A DNA stretch of 47,330 nucleotides, taken from assembly GCA_022821275.1 (NCBI GenBank), contig JAJEDY010000055.1:1-47330 (forward strand), given 5' to 3'. Source of the stretch: Candidatus Latescibacterota bacterium. Its GTDB lineage: Bacteria > Latescibacterota > UBA2968. Both the position numbers and the translations under genes were made by a program. The notes below the pieces were generated by a model. That model saw nothing but the letters and a program-made list of their open reading frames with translations, searched no databases and was not told where the DNA came from. Below, piece after piece: positions 35,799-43,818 of this stretch (the stretch's first letter is position 1; each line of letters begins with the position of its first letter).

Positions 35799-35975
35799 CT
35801 GGATCGCGGCTAACACCCTGCCGCGATGACGGGCGACCACAGGCCTGCCCCTGCATAATTTAAGCAGGGGGGGTCGCCCCTACAACACCATACCGCGATG
35901 ACAAGTCCGGGCGAGGCATGCCTCGCCCCTACACATCTATATTCATCTGCGTTCATCTGCGTTCATCTGCGGATC
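35799..35975. repeat. Nested composite repeat
   Basis: A palindrome (35799-35830) runs into GGGCGACC, an inner hairpin CCCCTGCATAATTTAAGCAG GGG, then GGTCGCCCCTAC (35831-35883). After this a second right arm ACACCATACCGCGATGAC appears (35886-35902), a GGGCGAGGC hairpin (35909-35932), and TTCATCTGCG units. 'AACACC' stands on both sides of the inner block, suggesting one copy inserted into another. It ends at the pafA stop. Confidence 0.75.
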
Positions 35976-37436
35976 CTACTTCCCCCTTCTCAACCCCATC
36001 ATCTTCGACGCGATCTCGACCTCCTCGACAAATGCCTCTGCCTCCTCGTCATACGTATCAAACGGATCGCGGAAACTCAAATGAAACTCATTTTCCAAAT
36101 ACACCGAATCCCAATCCACAATATACCGCACCCGATTTTGAGACAACGTCTTCACCATTGCCGCTCGCGCCTTTGCCCGCGTATCAGCTGGCGGCGTTCC
36201 ACACGCCTCTTCAACGCGGTCATCCGTCAACACGCGCTTCATCTTACCCTGTTTCTCCAGATCGAAATACAACCCGCGATTGGGATCGATATTGTGATAC
36301 TCCAGATCCAAACTCTGCAACCACGGATCGTCCCAACTCAAATTCTCCGACTCGCGAAACGCATCCAACAACCACTTCTTAGCCACCCAATCCACGCGAT
36401 CTGTCAACTGCGCGGGATCGGACGCCAGATCATCGAGCGTGCGCTCCCACTCATCCAGCACCCAATCCGACTCCTCATCCAACCCCCTCAAATGGCGCTG
36501 CGACAAAGCCAAATAAACGCGCTGAATATCAATCGCCGAAATCGTGCGCCCATTTTGCCGGTCCAGAATCCACTTATACGTTGGATCGCGCGAAATCTCC
36601 TTCAATGCCCACACCGGATCGCCCAATTCCACCGCATCCCCCGGAAAAATTTTGCGCTCTAAGAGATTCAGCACCATCGCCGTCGTACCAACCTTCAGTG
36701 CCGTCGCATACTCCGACATATTTGAATCGCCCACCAGAAGGTGCAAACGGCGGTACTTGCTGTGATCTGCCAGCGGTTCATCTCGCGTATTGATAATCGC
36801 GCGAGAAAACTGAATCCACTGATAAATCTCTGTCACAATATGATCCGCACGCTGAGAAATCTGGAAATTCACCGGATCTTCCCGATTGGCGGCCTCGCGC
36901 GCATTGTGCCCATAATAATAAAAACTATCATCATAACTGCCCACGCGACCTGCACCGCAAAAAATTTGGCGCGTCACCAAAAACGGCAACAGCGCGGGAA
37001 TGACAACCGTTGAAAACGGCACATTGCGCCTGACCAGATAATTTTCGTGACAGCCAAATGTCGCACCCGTATAGTGATCGATATTATTCTTCAAAAACGA
37101 CGCTTCCTTAGCCAACCCCAGCGCGTGCAATGCCCGGTGCAAAATGAGATCGCCAGCCCGATCAAACGCCACGATATCCCACAACCCCGAACACTCGGGC
37201 GTGGCGTATTCCAGATGCCCCATATCGATATAAATCCGCCCGGCATTAAACAAAAAACCCCCATTGCCCGGGGGTTCATCCCGCCCGCGATAGTGAATAT
37301 CCACAATCCCGAGACGGTCAACGTGAAAAATGTGATCCTTAACCTTCACCGAAATGGTATCTGGACTCACAAAACCCTCGTGCTCGGGCGCCAAACACCC
37401 ATACTCGGTTTCTATGCCAAAAATGCGGTCTCTCAT
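35976..37436 (-). CDS. pafA: Pup-protein ligase
   Basis: A 486-residue glutamine-synthetase-fold ligase that joins the C-terminal Glu of Pup to substrate lysines using ATP. It has 'FGIETEYG' with the nucleotide/metal Glu, Asp71 in 'GRIYIDMGHLEYATPEC' (catalytic base), 'FLKNNIDHYTGATFGCHENYL', 'LPFLVTRQIFCGAGRVG' and 'INTRDEPLADHSKYRRLHLL', and a PafA-type C-terminal domain ('VDWDSVYLENEFHLSFRDPF'). It lacks the Dop-specific early insertion, which is why I call it PafA and its paralogue Dop. Last gene of the locus, nine bases after prcA. Confidence 0.93.
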   Translation of the reverse strand: MRDRIFGIETEYGCLAPEHEGFVSPDTISVKVKDHIFHVDRLGIVDIHYRGRDEPPGNGGFLFNAGRIYIDMGHLEYATPECSGLWDIVAFDRAGDLILHRALHALGLAKEASFLKNNIDHYTGATFGCHENYLVRRNVPFSTVVIPALLPFLVTRQIFCGAGRVGSYDDSFYYYGHNAREAANREDPVNFQISQRADHIVTEIYQWIQFSRAIINTRDEPLADHSKYRRLHLLVGDSNMSEYATALKVGTTAMVLNLLERKIFPGDAVELGDPVWALKEISRDPTYKWILDRQNGRTISAIDIQRVYLALSQRHLRGLDEESDWVLDEWERTLDDLASDPAQLTDRVDWVAKKWLLDAFRESENLSWDDPWLQSLDLEYHNIDPNRGLYFDLEKQGKMKRVLTDDRVEEACGTPPADTRAKARAAMVKTLSQNRVRYIVDWDSVYLENEFHLSFRDPFDTYDEEAEAFVEEVEIASKMMGLRRGK

Positions 37437-37445
37437 CGGGACCTC

Positions 37446-38240
37446 TCAGTCTGCCTTAAACTGCGCCAGAGCGGGCGCAATTTCTTCTGCTTCGACATTG
37501 CGGTACTTGTTCTTACCCAACTGCGACCGCTCGAGCACCACCGCCTCCACCGCCAGATCCTTCAACGCCATCTCAAGCACATCAACCACATCGACCTCCC
37601 CAGCCACCTGATCCAACGCGTCGGCATCGGTGGGCACCTCATCCATCTTCCCAATCCATCGCCCTATTGCCCAGGCGCGAAGCGCGGCACCTGCGGCATC
37701 CGATAGCGACAGCGCCTCCGCATCCAGACCCGACAACTCGCGCACCATCATCACATCCGCCTCTACAACGCCCCCCACAGCAGCGCACCGCTCGTGTCGG
37801 TGAAACGCGCCATCGTAATCCACAGAATAAAAAACCTGCGCGCCCTCCTGCCCATCCAACTCCGCCAGAAGCACCCGCGCCAAAAAAGGAGACCGCACCA
37901 CCTCGTCAAACCCCGCCTTAATCGCAGGACCGAGACCAAAATACACAATTTGACGCAACGTCACATCGTCTTCTGAATAATTAAACCCAATCGAATGCGC
38001 CATATCAATCGCGGCCTGCCGCAGATTCTCGATATCCGTCGAATGCCCAATCCCCGCGAGCAAAATGCGGTCGTACACCTCAAACACTTTTTGCTGACTC
38101 TGCGACAACGTCAGCAACAAAACACCGCCCTCGTAACCCACACCCACGACCGGACTCCCCTGTCGGATCTGATCTTCAATATAATCGCGCCGATTCGCAA
38201 CAGCCTCTGCCCAGCGATACGGCTCATCGGACAACATCAT
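37446..38240 (-). CDS. prcA: Proteasome alpha subunit
   Basis: A 264-residue 20S alpha-type subunit, non-catalytic, forming the outer gate rings. The N-terminus 'YRWAEAVANRRDYIEDQIRQ' then GSPVVGVGYEGGVLLLT matches PrcA. 'KVFEVYDRILLAGIGHSTDIE' and 'RPFLA'-like stretches continue the fold. It overlaps prcB by four bases (ATGA). The C-terminal tail is acidic and unlike actinobacterial sequences. Confidence 0.92.
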   Translation of the reverse strand: MMLSDEPYRWAEAVANRRDYIEDQIRQGSPVVGVGYEGGVLLLTLSQSQQKVFEVYDRILLAGIGHSTDIENLRQAAIDMAHSIGFNYSEDDVTLRQIVYFGLGPAIKAGFDEVVRSPFLARVLLAELDGQEGAQVFYSVDYDGAFHRHERCAAVGGVVEADVMMVRELSGLDAEALSLSDAAGAALRAWAIGRWIGKMDEVPTDADALDQVAGEVDVVDVLEMALKDLAVEAVVLERSQLGKNKYRNVEAEEIAPALAQFKAD

Positions 38241-39040
38241 GCGCGTCCCGCCTCCTCCCCATCCACGTATTGAACATAAAGCTCACGCAACGCCTCGGTC
38301 TCGATCTCCGCCAGACCCGACGCCGTAATCGTCTTCACCGACGGAAAAATATCAGCCGACCGCTCGTATCGCCCCGTCGCCGAATCGTATTCCGACGCCG
38401 TATCCAGAAGCTGGAGCGCGTGCCCGATAGCCGCATCGCGATCCATATCCACAAATTGCTGACCGCCCCAGCGATTCAAATAGTACATCGCACCGCGAAT
38501 CGCCGGCGACCCCGACCCCGTCGTCGTAAAATCGGCACTCTCAAACTGCGCCCCCAGCGCATCGTAAAAATAGATCTTACCCCGCGCATCCACCCGGTCA
38601 TACGTCGCAAAAATCGGAATCACAGCGCCAATACCCTGCATCGCCATCGGCAAATTATCCTTGATCAACAGCGACAACCGGCGCAACTTCGCCTGCAAAC
38701 TCATCTCCTGAAGCAAACGGCGGCGATAATACTGAAACGCATGCTCTAAAATGCGCGCAATCTCAAACGCAATCGAAGGCGATCCCGAAATCGCCATCAC
38801 CGAAAACGCATCCAGATCAATCACCTTATCCGCGCGGTCATAAAGCACCATATTGCCCGCAGTGGCACGGCGATCCCCTGCAACGAGCACCCCATCGGCA
38901 TATTGAAATGCCAGAATCGTCGTCGCATCCGTCGGCTCAAAAGGCAAATCGCGCTCGGCCTTCACATCGCCCAACTGCTCACCCGGAAACCGGTATCCCG
39001 ATTGCCGCAGCAAATCGACAAAATCCCCACCCGATTGCAT
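38237..39040 (-). CDS. prcB: Proteasome beta subunit (catalytic)
   Basis: A 267-residue precursor. A 39-residue propeptide precedes Thr40 in 'TTILAFQYADGVLVAGDRRA', the expected N-terminal nucleophile after self-cleavage; mature length about 228. The fold motifs are 'VMAISGSPSIAFEIARILEH', 'TTTGSGSPAIRGAMYYL' and 'EYDSATGRYERSADIFPSVK'. The residue before the cleavage is Ala, where Gly is usual in PrcB. It starts three bases after pup and overlaps prcA, giving the classic pup-prcB-prcA order. Confidence 0.93.
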   Translation of the reverse strand: MQSGGDFVDLLRQSGYRFPGEQLGDVKAERDLPFEPTDATTILAFQYADGVLVAGDRRATAGNMVLYDRADKVIDLDAFSVMAISGSPSIAFEIARILEHAFQYYRRRLLQEMSLQAKLRRLSLLIKDNLPMAMQGIGAVIPIFATYDRVDARGKIYFYDALGAQFESADFTTTGSGSPAIRGAMYYLNRWGGQQFVDMDRDAAIGHALQLLDTASEYDSATGRYERSADIFPSVKTITASGLAEIETEALRELYVQYVDGEEAGRA

Positions 39041-39043
39041 AAT

Positions 39044-39235
39044 CTACTCGCCTGTACGCTGGCGGTAACGCCGCGCCTGATTGGGATCAACGCGCCGCAT
39101 GCGCCGCAACAAATCGTGCGTATCTGGCCGCTCCACCTTCGGGCGTGCAGGGCCACCATCGCCATCATCACCAGGACCAGGTCCTCCCGGATCGACCGGC
39201 TTCGTCCGTCGTTCAAACTGTAAGACCTTATCCAT
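39044..39235 (-). CDS. pup: Prokaryotic ubiquitin-like protein (Pup/UBact)
   Basis: A 63-residue modifier. The N-terminal half is Gly/Pro/Asp-rich and disordered in appearance (PVDPGGPGPGDDGDGG). The C-terminal half is helical and Arg-rich, ending 'ARRYRQRTGE'. A Glu end means it can be ligated by PafA without deamidation, unlike mycobacterial Pup, which ends in Gln. The Arg-Thr-Gly-Glu ending fits the Gram-negative UBact group. A strong AAGGAGG lies six bases before the ATG. It sits directly before prcB and after dop, so context confirms the call despite its short length. Confidence 0.93.
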   Translation of the reverse strand: MDKVLQFERRTKPVDPGGPGPGDDGDGGPARPKVERPDTHDLLRRMRRVDPNQARRYRQRTGE

Positions 39236-39251
39236 CTACGGCCTCCTTGAA

Positions 39252-39351
39252 AAAAGTGAGAAGTAAGAAGTGAGAAGTAAGAAGGCCCCGCCCAACCACC
39301 CAAAGGCTGGTGCCTCATCCCATTTCACACTTCCTCCTTCACACTTCACAC
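39252..39351 (-). repeat. Intercistronic repeat, copy 2 (dop-pup)
   Basis: Read on the minus strand it begins at dop's last codons GTG TGA, then AGTGTGAAGGAGGAAGTGTG, a core of CACCAGCCTTTGGGTGG and TTGGGCGGGGCC, and a tail of CTTCTTACTTCTCACTTC units, ending at the AAGGAGG of pup. It matches copy 1 at 22483-22560 over almost its whole length and carries an extra CTTACTTCTCACTT unit. Confidence 0.8.
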
Positions 39352-40866
39352 TTTCTCTAACGCCTCTAAAAAACTCTCTAACGTCTCCGAATTATCCAAC
39401 ACCTCATTATACCGCCTCACCCGCCCCTCATCCACCAATAATTTCATATCCACGGCATGCTGGCGGCCATTGCGCTTAAACACAATGCGATCCCAGTTAA
39501 TCGACGACACGTAATCGCCGAACTTCTCCAAACTGCGCCCGCGAAAATACGCCCGCGTACCCGAAGGCGGCTCCGACATCGCCGCTGCCACCTCATCATC
39601 GCCCACCAGACGCACCATCTGCCCCTGCGACTCCAGCAAATAATACAACCCCGCCTCCCGATCCACATTGCTATATTCCAGATCCTGACTCTGCATCCAG
39701 AACAAATCATCGGGATTATCCCACGCCAGATTCTCCGCCTCGCAAAAACTATCGATCAGCCACTTCTTCGTCACCCAATCGCACACCCCCACCAGATCCA
39801 TCGGATCGCGGCTCAACTTCTCTATCACATCTTCCCACGCCCCCAACACCCAATCCGTCTCTCGATCCCGCCCGGCAAACTCGCGCCGTGCCAACTGCAA
39901 AAACGCATCCTGAATCTCAACCGCGGGAACGAGGCGATGACCGGGACCCTCCACCTCGACCAGCCACGCATACGACTGATCGCGCGCGATATTCTTCATC
40001 GCCGCAATGGGATCCTTCAGCCGAAAATCTGGCAAACAATCCGCCTCAATCAAATCGATCACCAGCGCCGTTGACCCCACCTTAAGCGCCGTCATATACT
40101 CCGACATATTGGCATCGCCCACAATCACGTGCAACCGCCGATAGTGCGCCGCATCTGCGTGGGGTTCATCGCGCGTATTCACAACCGGACGCTTGTGCAT
40201 CGTATCCACACTCGCGATCACCTCGAAAAACTCCGCGCGTTGCGACAATTGATAAATCGGCGCGCGATCCTCGCGCTCAACACCCACCTTGCCAGCCCCG
40301 CAAAAAATTTGCCGCGTGGGGAAAAAGGACAACAACCCCTGTAATATACGCTCAAAGGGCACCGAACGATCCATCAAATAATTCTCGTGACACCCATAGC
40401 TATGCCCTTCAAAATCCGTATTGTTCTTATACATCCGCACAACGCCCTGATCGAGCATCTCCGTGCGCCGCCGCGCGCAAATATCCACAATGCGCTCCCC
40501 CGCCTTATCCTGTGCCACAAGCTCGAACAAACTTATGCACTCACCCGTCGAATACTCCGGATGCGTATGATCGTTGTAAAACCGGGACCCATTGTAAATA
40601 ATCAAATCGCTCTTCAATTCCTTAAACGGAATTTTGCGCTTGCGGTCCTGCTGCAAATGCACCTTCTCATCGGCATCATTCAACAAATTTTTGACCTCAA
40701 ACCCCCGCTCATCCCGACGGGGATTCTCCAGCCGATAATCCCACAACGGAACAAACTTGCCCTGTTGATAGCATCGAATCAACTGCATCGACTCTTCGAC
40801 CACATCGACCCTATCCACCTCGTCAATCGTGATTCCGTATTCTGTTTCCAAACCGAATAAGCGCAT
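39346..40866 (-). CDS. dop: Depupylase/deamidase of Pup
   Basis: A 506-residue PafA paralogue. It is called Dop because of the early insertion 'LWDYRLENPRRDERGFEVKN' typical of Dop, the catalytic Asp99 in 'RFYNDHTHPEYSTGEC', and a Dop-type ending. Dop removes Pup from proteins and, where Pup ends in Gln, converts it to Glu; that second job is not needed here. I start at 40866 (MRLFGLETEYG), one base after the arc stop; a longer frame upstream only shadows arc. The last codons GTG TGA belong to a repeat. Confidence 0.93.
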   Translation of the reverse strand: MRLFGLETEYGITIDEVDRVDVVEESMQLIRCYQQGKFVPLWDYRLENPRRDERGFEVKNLLNDADEKVHLQQDRKRKIPFKELKSDLIIYNGSRFYNDHTHPEYSTGECISLFELVAQDKAGERIVDICARRRTEMLDQGVVRMYKNNTDFEGHSYGCHENYLMDRSVPFERILQGLLSFFPTRQIFCGAGKVGVEREDRAPIYQLSQRAEFFEVIASVDTMHKRPVVNTRDEPHADAAHYRRLHVIVGDANMSEYMTALKVGSTALVIDLIEADCLPDFRLKDPIAAMKNIARDQSYAWLVEVEGPGHRLVPAVEIQDAFLQLARREFAGRDRETDWVLGAWEDVIEKLSRDPMDLVGVCDWVTKKWLIDSFCEAENLAWDNPDDLFWMQSQDLEYSNVDREAGLYYLLESQGQMVRLVGDDEVAAAMSEPPSGTRAYFRGRSLEKFGDYVSSINWDRIVFKRNGRQHAVDMKLLVDEGRVRRYNEVLDNSETLESFLEALEKV

Positions 40867-40867
40867 A

Positions 40868-42514
40868 TCACACCACACCGTGCCTTGAGGCGCGTCGTTC
40901 TCGCCTGGGCTTAATCGGTACTGCGCGCACCACATTTTCGGGATCGTAATCCAGCAACTTCAACCAATCCTCTGTATTATCTGTCGGCGGGAAAATCTCA
41001 TTCTCGCTGTACTCGGTCTCAATCCCCGCGAGCAAATCGCCAAACCCAATCCCATCTTCTGCACCCGACGCAATACACCGCTTAATCACAATCTCCTTCG
41101 CGCGCTGCACAATAGACTCGAGAATCGCCCCGCTACACAGATCCCCTCGGCTCAACACCTCCTTGCGACCGCTTCTGAGCAACACCTCTAAGAAGCGCGT
41201 ATCATCGCGCGCGGCATATATCTCTGCTATCGCACGCGCCGCGAGATCGTCAACCGCAGCCTTCGCATCGCCGTCATGCGCGTTTAACGCATCCTCAGAC
41301 AGCGGCAAATCAGCCGTCAAATAAATACCCAAAATCTCGCGCGCAGCCTCCTCGTCTGGACGAAGCACCTTGATCTTGCGATCAATACGCCCCGGGCGCA
41401 AAATCGCCGGATCGATCAAATCTGGACGATTGGACGTCAAAATAATCACCACATCTTGCAGGGAATCGATCCCGTCCATCTCGGAACAAAACATCGGCAC
41501 AACCGTATTTGAAATATTGTGCGACCGAATTGCCCGCCGCGTCCCCAGGACCGACTCTGCCTCGTCGATAAACACCACCGGTAAAAACCCCTCGCGCCGC
41601 TTCTCGCGCGCCTGAGAAAAAATCTCGCGCACCTTGCGCTCGGACTCGCCCAACCACATATTCAAAATCTCAGGACCTTTAATATGCATAAAACACGCCT
41701 TGAGATTCAGGCCATCTGCCTGCACCTGCTTCTCCAGATTATACGCCGTCGCCTTCCCAATCAGCGTCTTGCCACACCCTGGCGGACCGTACAACAAAAA
41801 CCCCTTGGGCGTACTGTACTGAAACCGCTTAAACAACTCCGGATGCAACACCGGCATCTCAATCGTATCTTTAATCGCCTGAATCGCATCCTTTTGTCCG
41901 CCGATCTTTTCCCACGGCAAATCCGGAACTTCTTCCAGATAAAAATCCTTCACCTCGGAATGCGGCATCTTCTCCAGTGCCACGCGAAAATGCGGATCAA
42001 TGCGCACCTCCTCCCCCGCCTTCAACGCCTCGGCCTCCAGATCGGACCCCCGCAGCAAAATATGCGTCTGCGAACCGTGTTCTTGCCCCACCTGCAAGCG
42101 CCCATCGTCCAGCACATCGACAATTTTACCCACCGTACCCGACGGCGACTCGCCCATATCGCCCACCACGGCGAACGCCTCATTGACCAGCACCCGCGTC
42201 CCCACCCTCAAATCGCGTTCATCCAACCGCCCATCCACATTGGCATAATACTCTGCCCCACCCACCGTAATATACGCGACGCCATTCTCTGGCGGCGACA
42301 ACAACGTACCGACCCGATTGGCCGGTGCCGTCACCTTCTCCAGCGCCCCTTCCAACTCCACAATCGTGCGCCTCGCCTCCTCAAACGTAATCTCGTCTTC
42401 CTGAAGCTGCCGGCGCAACTGGAACAGCAGGGGCCGCCGCCGATCCGTCTCATCCATCGTCATCAAAATCTGATCGATAATCGACAACGACTGAAACGTA
42501 TGCTGCATATCCAC
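40868..42514 (-). CDS. arc: Proteasomal AAA+ ATPase ARC (Mpa-like)
   Basis: A 548-residue unfoldase. It has an N-terminal coiled coil (about 30-60), OB domains ('YITVGGAEYYANVDGRLDER' and 'GTVGKIVDVLDDGRLQVGQE'), then an AAA+ module: Walker A 'GPPGCGKTLIGKA', pore loop near 'FMHIKGPEILNMWLGES', Walker B 'VVFIDEAESVLG', arginine fingers in 'LRPGRIDRKI'. It should recognise Pup-tagged proteins and feed them to the 20S core. It ends 'RRERRASRHGVV' without the Gln-Tyr-Leu tail that docks mycobacterial Mpa. It heads the locus, with dop one base after. Confidence 0.93.
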   Translation of the reverse strand: MDMQHTFQSLSIIDQILMTMDETDRRRPLLFQLRRQLQEDEITFEEARRTIVELEGALEKVTAPANRVGTLLSPPENGVAYITVGGAEYYANVDGRLDERDLRVGTRVLVNEAFAVVGDMGESPSGTVGKIVDVLDDGRLQVGQEHGSQTHILLRGSDLEAEALKAGEEVRIDPHFRVALEKMPHSEVKDFYLEEVPDLPWEKIGGQKDAIQAIKDTIEMPVLHPELFKRFQYSTPKGFLLYGPPGCGKTLIGKATAYNLEKQVQADGLNLKACFMHIKGPEILNMWLGESERKVREIFSQAREKRREGFLPVVFIDEAESVLGTRRAIRSHNISNTVVPMFCSEMDGIDSLQDVVIILTSNRPDLIDPAILRPGRIDRKIKVLRPDEEAAREILGIYLTADLPLSEDALNAHDGDAKAAVDDLAARAIAEIYAARDDTRFLEVLLRSGRKEVLSRGDLCSGAILESIVQRAKEIVIKRCIASGAEDGIGFGDLLAGIETEYSENEIFPPTDNTEDWLKLLDYDPENVVRAVPIKPRRERRASRHGVV

Positions 42515-42589: not shown

Positions 42590-42730
42590 TGTCTGAATCA
42601 GGATTCGCAGGATTTAAGGATGAACAGGATGAAAAGCAAAACCTTCTGGATCGCGGCTTAAAGCCTGCCGCGATGACGGGTACCATTATTCACACTTCAC
42701 ACTTCACACTTCACACTTCACACTTCAACC
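42590..42730. repeat. Composite repeat upstream of the pup-proteasome locus
   Basis: The left end is GAATCAGGATTCGCAGGATT, TAAGGATGAACAGGATGAAAAG; the palindrome GGATCGCGGCTTAAAGCC/TGCCGCGATGAC is at 42643-42677; the right end has five tandem ACACTTC units (about 42690-42725). It sits just upstream of arc, so the locus promoter must lie in 42515-42600 or within it. I saw no convincing promoter. Confidence 0.75.
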
Positions 42731-42769: not shown

Positions 42770-43705
42770 CTACTCCTTTTCGAGCTCCTCTAACTTGCGC
42801 TCCATATCAATTTTAATCTCGGCGACAATATTGGGAATCGGGTCCCTCTTCATCGCTTTAATAACCGTGGGCTTCGTGATATCAAAATGCATCTTATGCT
42901 CTATCACCAGCCCGCGCGTCGCATCGATCACCCACGACCCACCGCCTGTACCCTTCCCATTGTAATACAGAGAAGCCACACTCACCTCAATCCACCCCGC
43001 GTACTCCACCTCACTATCCTCATCGATATGCACCTCCACGCGCCCCTTCGCATTCTTGATATTCTTCACCTCGTAAGTACTCTTAATTTTAATCTGCGAA
43101 TCGCGCCCCATCATATCCATACTCGCAAAAGGACGCCAGAACACCCGCTCGCCCGTCCAGGTATCGCCCTTATTAACTGGCCCATCCGGCAAAACGGGCG
43201 CAAACGCGGGAATCGCCCCCTGGTACATATCCGTAATCAAATCCTGCCGCTCCACGCGAAACGCGGGAAAATCAGGCTCGAACTTCTGCACCCTGCCCTC
43301 GGGCGTCACCTGCCAGGTAAAAACCCGATCATTAAACATATCAAACGTAAACGGAAACTGCTCATACGTCTGCTTCTCACCCAGAAAAATCGCCGCACTC
43401 GCGCCCTTCTTAATCTCGGCGCGAACGCCCATCACCCCTTCGGGAATCGTCCTCCCCGGCAGCGCCTGGGGCACAACCACCTCTTCATGGCTGCGCCACT
43501 CATTATCTATAATCACTTTAATATGCCCGCTCTGCATCACAATCTGCTCGCCCATATTGCTGTAATACTCCACCCGGAACTTGTGCTTATAACGCGCCTT
43601 GCGCCCCTCTGGAAACTTCAGTGCAAGCGCCGTAGCCTGTGCGCCAGCATCGGCGACCATGCCGATGAGCAACCCGAAAATAAGTGTTAATTTTAATATA
43701 CGCAT
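42770..43705 (-). CDS. Exported protein of unknown function (DUF6263-like)
   Basis: A 311-residue protein with a signal peptide (MRILKLTLIFGLLIGMVADA then GAQA). The mature part is beta-rich with repeated charged strands ('ARYKHKFRVEYYSNMGEQIV', 'NKGDTWTGERVFWRP', 'GSWVIDATRGLVIEHKM') and a helical Glu/Lys-rich tail (IDMERKLEELEKE). The layout recalls DUF6263-type periplasmic proteins, but I am not sure. It is upstream of the proteasome locus on the same strand, separated by repeat DNA, so co-regulation is unlikely. Confidence 0.6.
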   Translation of the reverse strand: MRILKLTLIFGLLIGMVADAGAQATALALKFPEGRKARYKHKFRVEYYSNMGEQIVMQSGHIKVIIDNEWRSHEEVVVPQALPGRTIPEGVMGVRAEIKKGASAAIFLGEKQTYEQFPFTFDMFNDRVFTWQVTPEGRVQKFEPDFPAFRVERQDLITDMYQGAIPAFAPVLPDGPVNKGDTWTGERVFWRPFASMDMMGRDSQIKIKSTYEVKNIKNAKGRVEVHIDEDSEVEYAGWIEVSVASLYYNGKGTGGGSWVIDATRGLVIEHKMHFDITKPTVIKAMKRDPIPNIVAEIKIDMERKLEELEKE

Positions 43706-43712
43706 AAGAACC

Positions 43713-43818
43713 TCCTGGATCGCGGCTCAACACCATACCGCGATGACGGGCGAGGCATGCCTCGCCCCTACGGTTGTTCACTCTTCACAGCCCTTCTTTT
43801 TTCTCTGCGTTATCTGCG
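43713..43818. repeat. Composite repeat between two minus-strand genes
   Basis: The palindrome CTGGATCGCGGCTCAACACC/ATACCGCGATGAC (43713-43747) is followed by the GGGCGAGGC-type hairpin (43748-43771) and by CTGCGTTATCTGCGTCATCT. The next bases, CTGCGGATTCTCC, are inside the coding end of the oxidoreductase gene. Confidence 0.8.

Follow-up and report, generated by a model that had tools for sequence, protein, structure and literature searches.

A native UBact-type tag-proteasome operon in Candidatus Latescibacterota that differs from the actinobacterial Pup system in its tag and in the C-terminus of its unfoldase

We analyzed a stretch of 47,330 nucleotides from a Candidatus Latescibacterota bacterium (contig JAJEDY010000055.1; hereafter, the window), in which six genes on the minus strand at positions 35976-42514, arc-dop-tag-prcB-prcA-pafA, encode a protein tag, its ligase and deconjugase homologues, an AAA unfoldase and a 20S proteasome core. 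With a probability of about 0.9, the six genes form a UBact-type tag-proteasome operon that is native to Latescibacterota and works as proposed below. The reading draws on gene content and order, catalytic residues, the C-terminal tail pattern of the unfoldase ARC, selection and phylogeny, each observed directly. The system is of a known kind; for its comparative details (the ARC tail, two systems in Poribacteria and the repeats of one intergenic gap) no description was found. The features are as follows.

40868..42514, minus strand: arc, Mpa-like hexameric AAA unfoldase, 548 aa (Pfam AAA, E 1.6e-32, with OB_N and OB_C; PDB Mpa 5kwa)
39346..40866, minus strand: dop, deconjugase/deamidase homologue, ~506 aa (PF03136, E 5e-152; PDB Dop 4b0r)
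39236..39345, minus strand: dop-tag gap, 110 bp, with a repeat-derived hairpin (fold -41.2 kcal/mol), a T run and an AAGGAGG ribosome-binding site
39044..39235, minus strand: UBact tag, 63 aa, C-terminus RRYRQRTGE (NF033388, 81.3 bits; PF20513, E 2.6e-20)
38237..39040, minus strand: prcB, 20S beta subunit, 267 aa (Proteasome PF00227, E 6e-25)
37446..38240, minus strand: prcA, 20S alpha subunit, 264 aa (PF00227, E 9.7e-10)
35976..37436, minus strand: pafA, tag ligase homologue, 486 aa (PF03136, E 5.5e-144)
42770..43705, minus strand: upstream neighbour of arc, with a signal-peptide-like N-terminus and a weak DUF6263 match (PF19777, 20.9 bits, under cut-off)

Every open reading frame (ORF) of the six is open and full length, and no frameshifts were found. 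The start of dop was set at MRLFGLETEYG (40866), a longer ORF option starting at 40935. Intergenic distances are 1 bp for arc/dop, 110 bp for dop/tag, 3 bp for tag/prcB and 9 bp for prcA/pafA, and prcB and prcA overlap by 4 bp. Pfam and NCBIfam identify each gene (E from 1e-9 to 1e-152). The whole genome possesses two PF03136 genes, both at the locus, and a single UBact gene, the tag gene of the locus. Thus, the sequence and the family searches bear out the original prediction of six genes on one strand, with its spacings, and of a pathway complete with tag, ligase, depupylase, unfoldase and 20S core in a genome of the Fibrobacterota-Chlorobiota-Bacteroidota (FCB) group, to which the phylum Latescibacterota belongs.

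The same prediction took the tag for Pup, which was wrong. The tag passes the UBact model NF033388 (81.3 bits, cut-off 35, E 4e-23) and PF20513 (72.4 bits, cut-off 27.8, E 2.6e-20) and matches none of the Pup models of NCBIfam and Pfam, including TIGR03687. No Pup chain of the PDB is matched up to E 10; by comparison, a Poribacterial Pup finds one at E 1e-8. These matches identify it as UBact, which is to Gram-negative bacteria what Pup is to actinobacteria. UBact conjugation and proteasome systems have been described since 2017 (Lehmann et al. 2017, BBRC 483:946, cited in PMC12751074), and the original prediction rightly warned that this gene set also occurs in phyla other than Actinobacteria. 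The window locus shares the tag family, the partner genes and the tag end Arg-Thr-Gly-Glu/Gln with these systems and differs from them in nothing essential. The candidate phyla listed in 2017 reportedly include Handelsmanbacteria; we believe this group to be close to that of the window, and related UBact proteins from it were presumably catalogued earlier. In the open-access literature, which most subscription journals lie outside, UBact is hardly mentioned and nothing was found on proteasomes in Latescibacterota.

The main UBact copies of the Latescibacterota, Poribacteria and Verrucomicrobia loci end in TGE or TGQ, a tally in which some loci repeat the same genome, so that the counts are not independent. 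The TGQ ending characterizes most Verrucomicrobia and most members of one Latescibacterota host family (f4). The last residue thus alternates between Glu and Gln inside a single phylum (f4 versus f1-f3). Since the C-terminal Glu of the window tag is already encoded (Thr-Gly-Glu), it needs no deamidation, while a tag ending in TGQ would need it by analogy with Pup.

Unusual UBact copies were observed in two further assemblies. In a Baikal Latescibacterota contig (SICM01000120.1, L031:7110-7588, the L062 locus), a tandem second UBact-like gene follows the normal one; its product has a proline-rich insert and ends in RRYRQRDGGVN, with extra residues past GG, and it might require trimming or might be unable to conjugate. 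An orphan UBact gene (L032:4792-5025, also L059, JAPUJS010000023.1) is flanked by response regulators and a sigma-70 factor, with no proteasome genes nearby. The same bin contains a full UBact locus (L033), and the orphan may represent either an additional tag or an error of binning.

By sequence, the other five gene products are unmistakably homologous to their actinobacterial counterparts, but none belongs to the respective NCBIfam equivalog family. Their scores against the equivalog cut-offs are 468.5/504.75 bits for pup_AAA, 446/492.3 for Dop, 376.1/551.3 for PafA, 78.8/139.05 for 20S alpha and 171.3/191.9 for 20S beta. In ARC, a short helix region at the N-terminus precedes two proteasomal OB domains and an AAA domain, which carries the Walker A (GPPGCGKT), Walker B (FIDEAE) and pore loop (WLG) motifs. 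Its best PDB match is Mpa 5kwa (E 1.3e-102), in an alignment that spans the OB, AAA and C-terminal regions, including the beta-grasp. The dop product scores 446 bits on the NCBIfam Dop model versus 341 on the PafA model, and it matches Acidothermus Dop 4b0r (E 3.8e-114) with the Dop loop aligned. This loop (WDYRLENPRRDERGFE), a conserved feature of Dop (PMC9556782), is present in the dop copy only and is missing from PafA. The latter has the active-site region IYIDMGHLEYATPEC and matches 4b0t and 4b0r in the PDB. PrcB (E 2e-30 to bacterial PrcB in the PDB) possesses a 39-residue propeptide followed by T1 (TTILAFQY...), and D17 and K33 are kept. The more divergent PrcA matches M. tuberculosis PrcA 2fhg at E 4.5e-15. 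The pocket lysine that corresponds to M. tuberculosis Lys52, which is essential there for PafE-mediated degradation (PMC9599533), is retained in the window PrcA and in every PrcA aligned. A search for the activator Bpa/PafE itself (PF10759) gave no match, and the control genomes likewise gave none.

The locus therefore has much in common with the actinobacterial Pup-proteasome: gene order, enzyme families, catalytic residues, the Dop loop, the PrcB propeptide and PrcA Lys52. It differs in a tag whose sequence shows no detectable similarity to Pup, in enzymes that score under the equivalog cut-offs and belong to a separate deep clade, and in the ARC C-terminus, a hydrophobic pair in place of the GQYL of Mpa. 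Aligned sequences mark this last feature as the main protein-level difference from the Pup type, and a real one. The window ARC ends in SRHGVV. In the tree set, the last two residues are hydrophobic and non-aromatic in all 32 UBact-type ARC proteins: Val-Ile in most, Val-Val in those of the window and of a single congener, and otherwise Ile-Val or, once, Ala-Ile; an aromatic penultimate residue occurs in 0/32. The Pup-type ARC proteins, including those of the actinobacterium and of the same Poribacterial genomes, end in Gly-x-Tyr/Phe-Leu/Phe (11/11). Mpa docks by its C-terminal GQYL, the penultimate tyrosine being described as the main binding determinant (PMC8755798; PMC9599533), a role ascribed to this residue in proteasomal ATPases generally (PMC8755798). 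The tail change represents one event on one deep branch, not repeated evolution, and conservation of the tail over large divergence on both sides argues that it is functional. In the UBact type, ARC presumably docks through its tail carboxylate and the conserved PrcA lysine. No description of the tail pattern was found in the papers searched. A joint loss of PrcA Arg26 with the tail tyrosine was also considered and dropped; the position varies in Poribacterial Pup-type PrcA too.

The distribution of the system was assessed in 64 Latescibacterota genomes, 47 of the window's class and 17 of other classes. Pup_ligase genes were found in all genomes of the class (47/47) and UBact in 45/47, while neither was found in the other classes (0/17 genomes). 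The order arc-dop-UBact-prcB-prcA-pafA is kept, with inserts in some cases, in the complete Latescibacterota and Poribacteria loci examined. The host genome is a 97.5% complete metagenome-assembled genome (MAG) of 5.66 Mb in 101 contigs. Its closest named relatives are mostly Candidatus Latescibacterota MAGs with 97-98% identical tags. The flanks fit Latescibacterota, and no actinobacterial flanking sequence was seen. They contain a Por_Secre_tail/FlgD_ig protein with a sorting tail of the type IX secretion system, PhyH dioxygenases, sulfatases and an ATP-binding cassette exporter. Ratios of nonsynonymous to synonymous substitution rates (dN/dS) against the congener OX638329.1 (L056) are 0.11 for arc, 0.12 for dop, 0.07 for UBact, 0.10 for prcB, 0.19 for prcA and 0.12 for pafA, from which we infer that all six genes are maintained under purifying selection. 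The locus is native to the class, where it is maintained and no curiosity.

Phylogenetic trees were built from Latescibacterota, Poribacteria, Verrucomicrobia (absent from the PrcA+PrcB tree) and one actinobacterial genome, with two actinobacterial PDB sequences added for Dop and PafA; Nitrospirota and Armatimonadota lay outside the sample. The split between UBact type and Pup type is supported at 100/100 both for ARC and for PrcA+PrcB. UBact-type Dop proteins form a group with support of 98/93 and UBact-type PafA proteins one of 100/100, and the deepest nodes of Dop and PafA are weakly placed. Within Latescibacterota, vertical descent would lead one to expect the host families f1-f4 in the gene trees, and these are mostly recovered.

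At this sampling of the trees, the phylogeny, the tag family and the class-wide distribution exclude a recent actinobacterial import. A Mycobacterium Pup-proteasome locus is described in PMC8223512. In Mycobacterium the order is Mpa-Dop-Pup-PrcB-PrcA-PafA, identical to that of the window. This shared order would fit the recent horizontal transfer of a complete Pup operon, as would the five enzymes, each of which resembles actinobacterial structures in sequence. However, that scenario has a vanishing chance of being correct, given a UBact tag, five enzymes under the actinobacterial cut-offs, a long and fully supported branch between the two types, and class-wide presence with nested host taxonomy and native flanks. 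Three points do weigh against a native operon working as proposed. UBact-type PafA is nearly equal on the PafA and Dop models (376 versus 360 bits), and therefore the ligase and depupylase roles are assigned from the Dop loop, the place of each gene in the operon and the tree. Monophyly of all PafA proteins is neither supported nor rejected (p-AU of the approximately unbiased test, 0.41). Finally, ARC might dock by some element other than its hydrophobic tail. The similar Dop and PafA scores and the weakly placed PafA node would suggest that the UBact ligase arose independently from a Dop; this is not claimed here, a single PafA clade being compatible with the data (p-AU 0.41).

For a native UBact-type operon, we infer every step of the biochemistry, as well as how ARC docks, from the actinobacterial system. 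PafA with ATP would activate the C-terminal Glu of UBact and join it to a lysine of the target protein. Dop would strip and recycle the tag and, where the UBact of a relative ends in Gly-Gln, also deamidate it. The N-terminal helices of the ARC hexamer would bind UBact by its C-terminal half, which is probably helical, and ARC would thread the tagged protein via its pore into the PrcA/PrcB 20S chamber, its tail of two hydrophobic residues docking on the PrcA ring via the terminal carboxylate and the pocket lysine. The substrate would then be cut by the N-terminal threonine of PrcB, released from the propeptide.

It is also conceivable that tagging and degradation are separate, with UBact acting as a reversible signal and ARC and the 20S core acting on other substrates. 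The ARC tail without the tyrosine that anchors Mpa would agree with this, as would Verrucomicrobia in which the ligase, arc-dop and UBact-prcB-prcA occupy three separate places. We regard this separation as improbable, however: the six genes stay linked over large divergence in Latescibacterota and Poribacteria, PrcB retains T1, D17 and K33, PrcA retains the pocket lysine, and even in Verrucomicrobia UBact still adjoins prcB-prcA. The scattered arrangement was seen in L114 and L159-L163, which are of Chthoniobacterales type. Another alternative concerns the regulation of the operon, in which, together with its details, the original prediction had placed the novelty; the details hold, as the proteins do differ, chiefly in the ARC C-terminus, while novelty in regulation is not supported. 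The 110-base dop-tag gap could be a conserved attenuator that controls the UBact supply, since it contains a strong hairpin (-41.2 kcal/mol, z -3.0) followed by six T and a strong AAGGAGG site, and hairpins occur in several congeners too. Yet the congener gaps vary from 54 to 340 bases, their hairpins are unrelated in sequence and length and made of dispersed repeats, and in other genera the gap is 32-46 bases long without a strong hairpin, which renders an attenuator very unlikely. The AAGGAGG site is identical throughout the congeners. A conserved regulatory hairpin before the tag was rejected by this congener comparison, and from its sequence the gap looks like a site that tolerates repeat insertion rather than a conserved control element.

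Dispersed intergenic repeats lie on both sides of the operon and make up part of the dop-UBact gap (window 35799-35932, 39318-39353, 42646-42725 and 43716-43771). They comprise TTCACAC arrays, a palindrome with the sequence GGGCGAGGCATGCCTCGCCC and a repeat unit of 35 bp around GGATCGCGGC...GCCGCGATGACGGG. In two other Latescibacterota, foreign genes are inserted in the dop-UBact gap: a DNA methylase with an MjaI-type restriction endonuclease in L031:5202-7094, and a 400-aa protein without a Pfam match, nuclease-like by eye, in L037:6518-7720. Predicted promoters and terminators did not clearly outnumber those in shuffled sequences, and Rfam and tRNA scans of the window gave no match. The DUF6263-like gene is found on the same strand just upstream of arc across families f1 and f2, and it may or may not belong to the UBact system.

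In Poribacteria, Pup_ligase genes were found in 83/85 sampled genomes, and most have four; one 2.8-Mb assembly (G080) gave nine matches, which may reflect contamination or a true expansion. Each examined genome has two complete loci, one of UBact type and one of Pup type with a true Pup, which scores 48.9 bits on TIGR03687 (cut-off 41.45) and ends in GGQ or GGE. Both loci lie on a single contig in four genomes (G072, G097, G103 and G158), the pairs being L064 and L158 in G072 (OY282374.1), and also L213/L214, L215/L216 and L217/L218. The Pup-type loci (L158, L214, L215 and L217) contain the same six genes as the window in the same order; they differ from it in their true Pup and in an ARC ending in Gly-x-Tyr/Phe-Leu/Phe, and in the ARC tree as in the 20S tree they cluster with the actinobacterium. 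No paper reporting UBact and Pup together in Poribacteria was found in the open-access literature.

UBact tagging emerges as a core trait of the window's class, universal among the sampled genomes, and the window locus alone is ordinary there. It can be speculated, tentatively and at somewhat less than even odds, that the UBact type couples motor and core differently from the proteasomal ATPases described so far, through its tyrosine-free, branched-hydrophobic tail, and that in Poribacteria the two tails keep the two systems apart, each motor opening no core other than its own. A whole branch of bacterial proteasomes without the penultimate tyrosine makes the need for this residue testable, and the Glu/Gln switch of UBact provides a natural test for its deamidation by Dop. 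Sponge-associated Poribacteria offer natural pairs for studying how crosstalk between two tag-proteasome systems is avoided.

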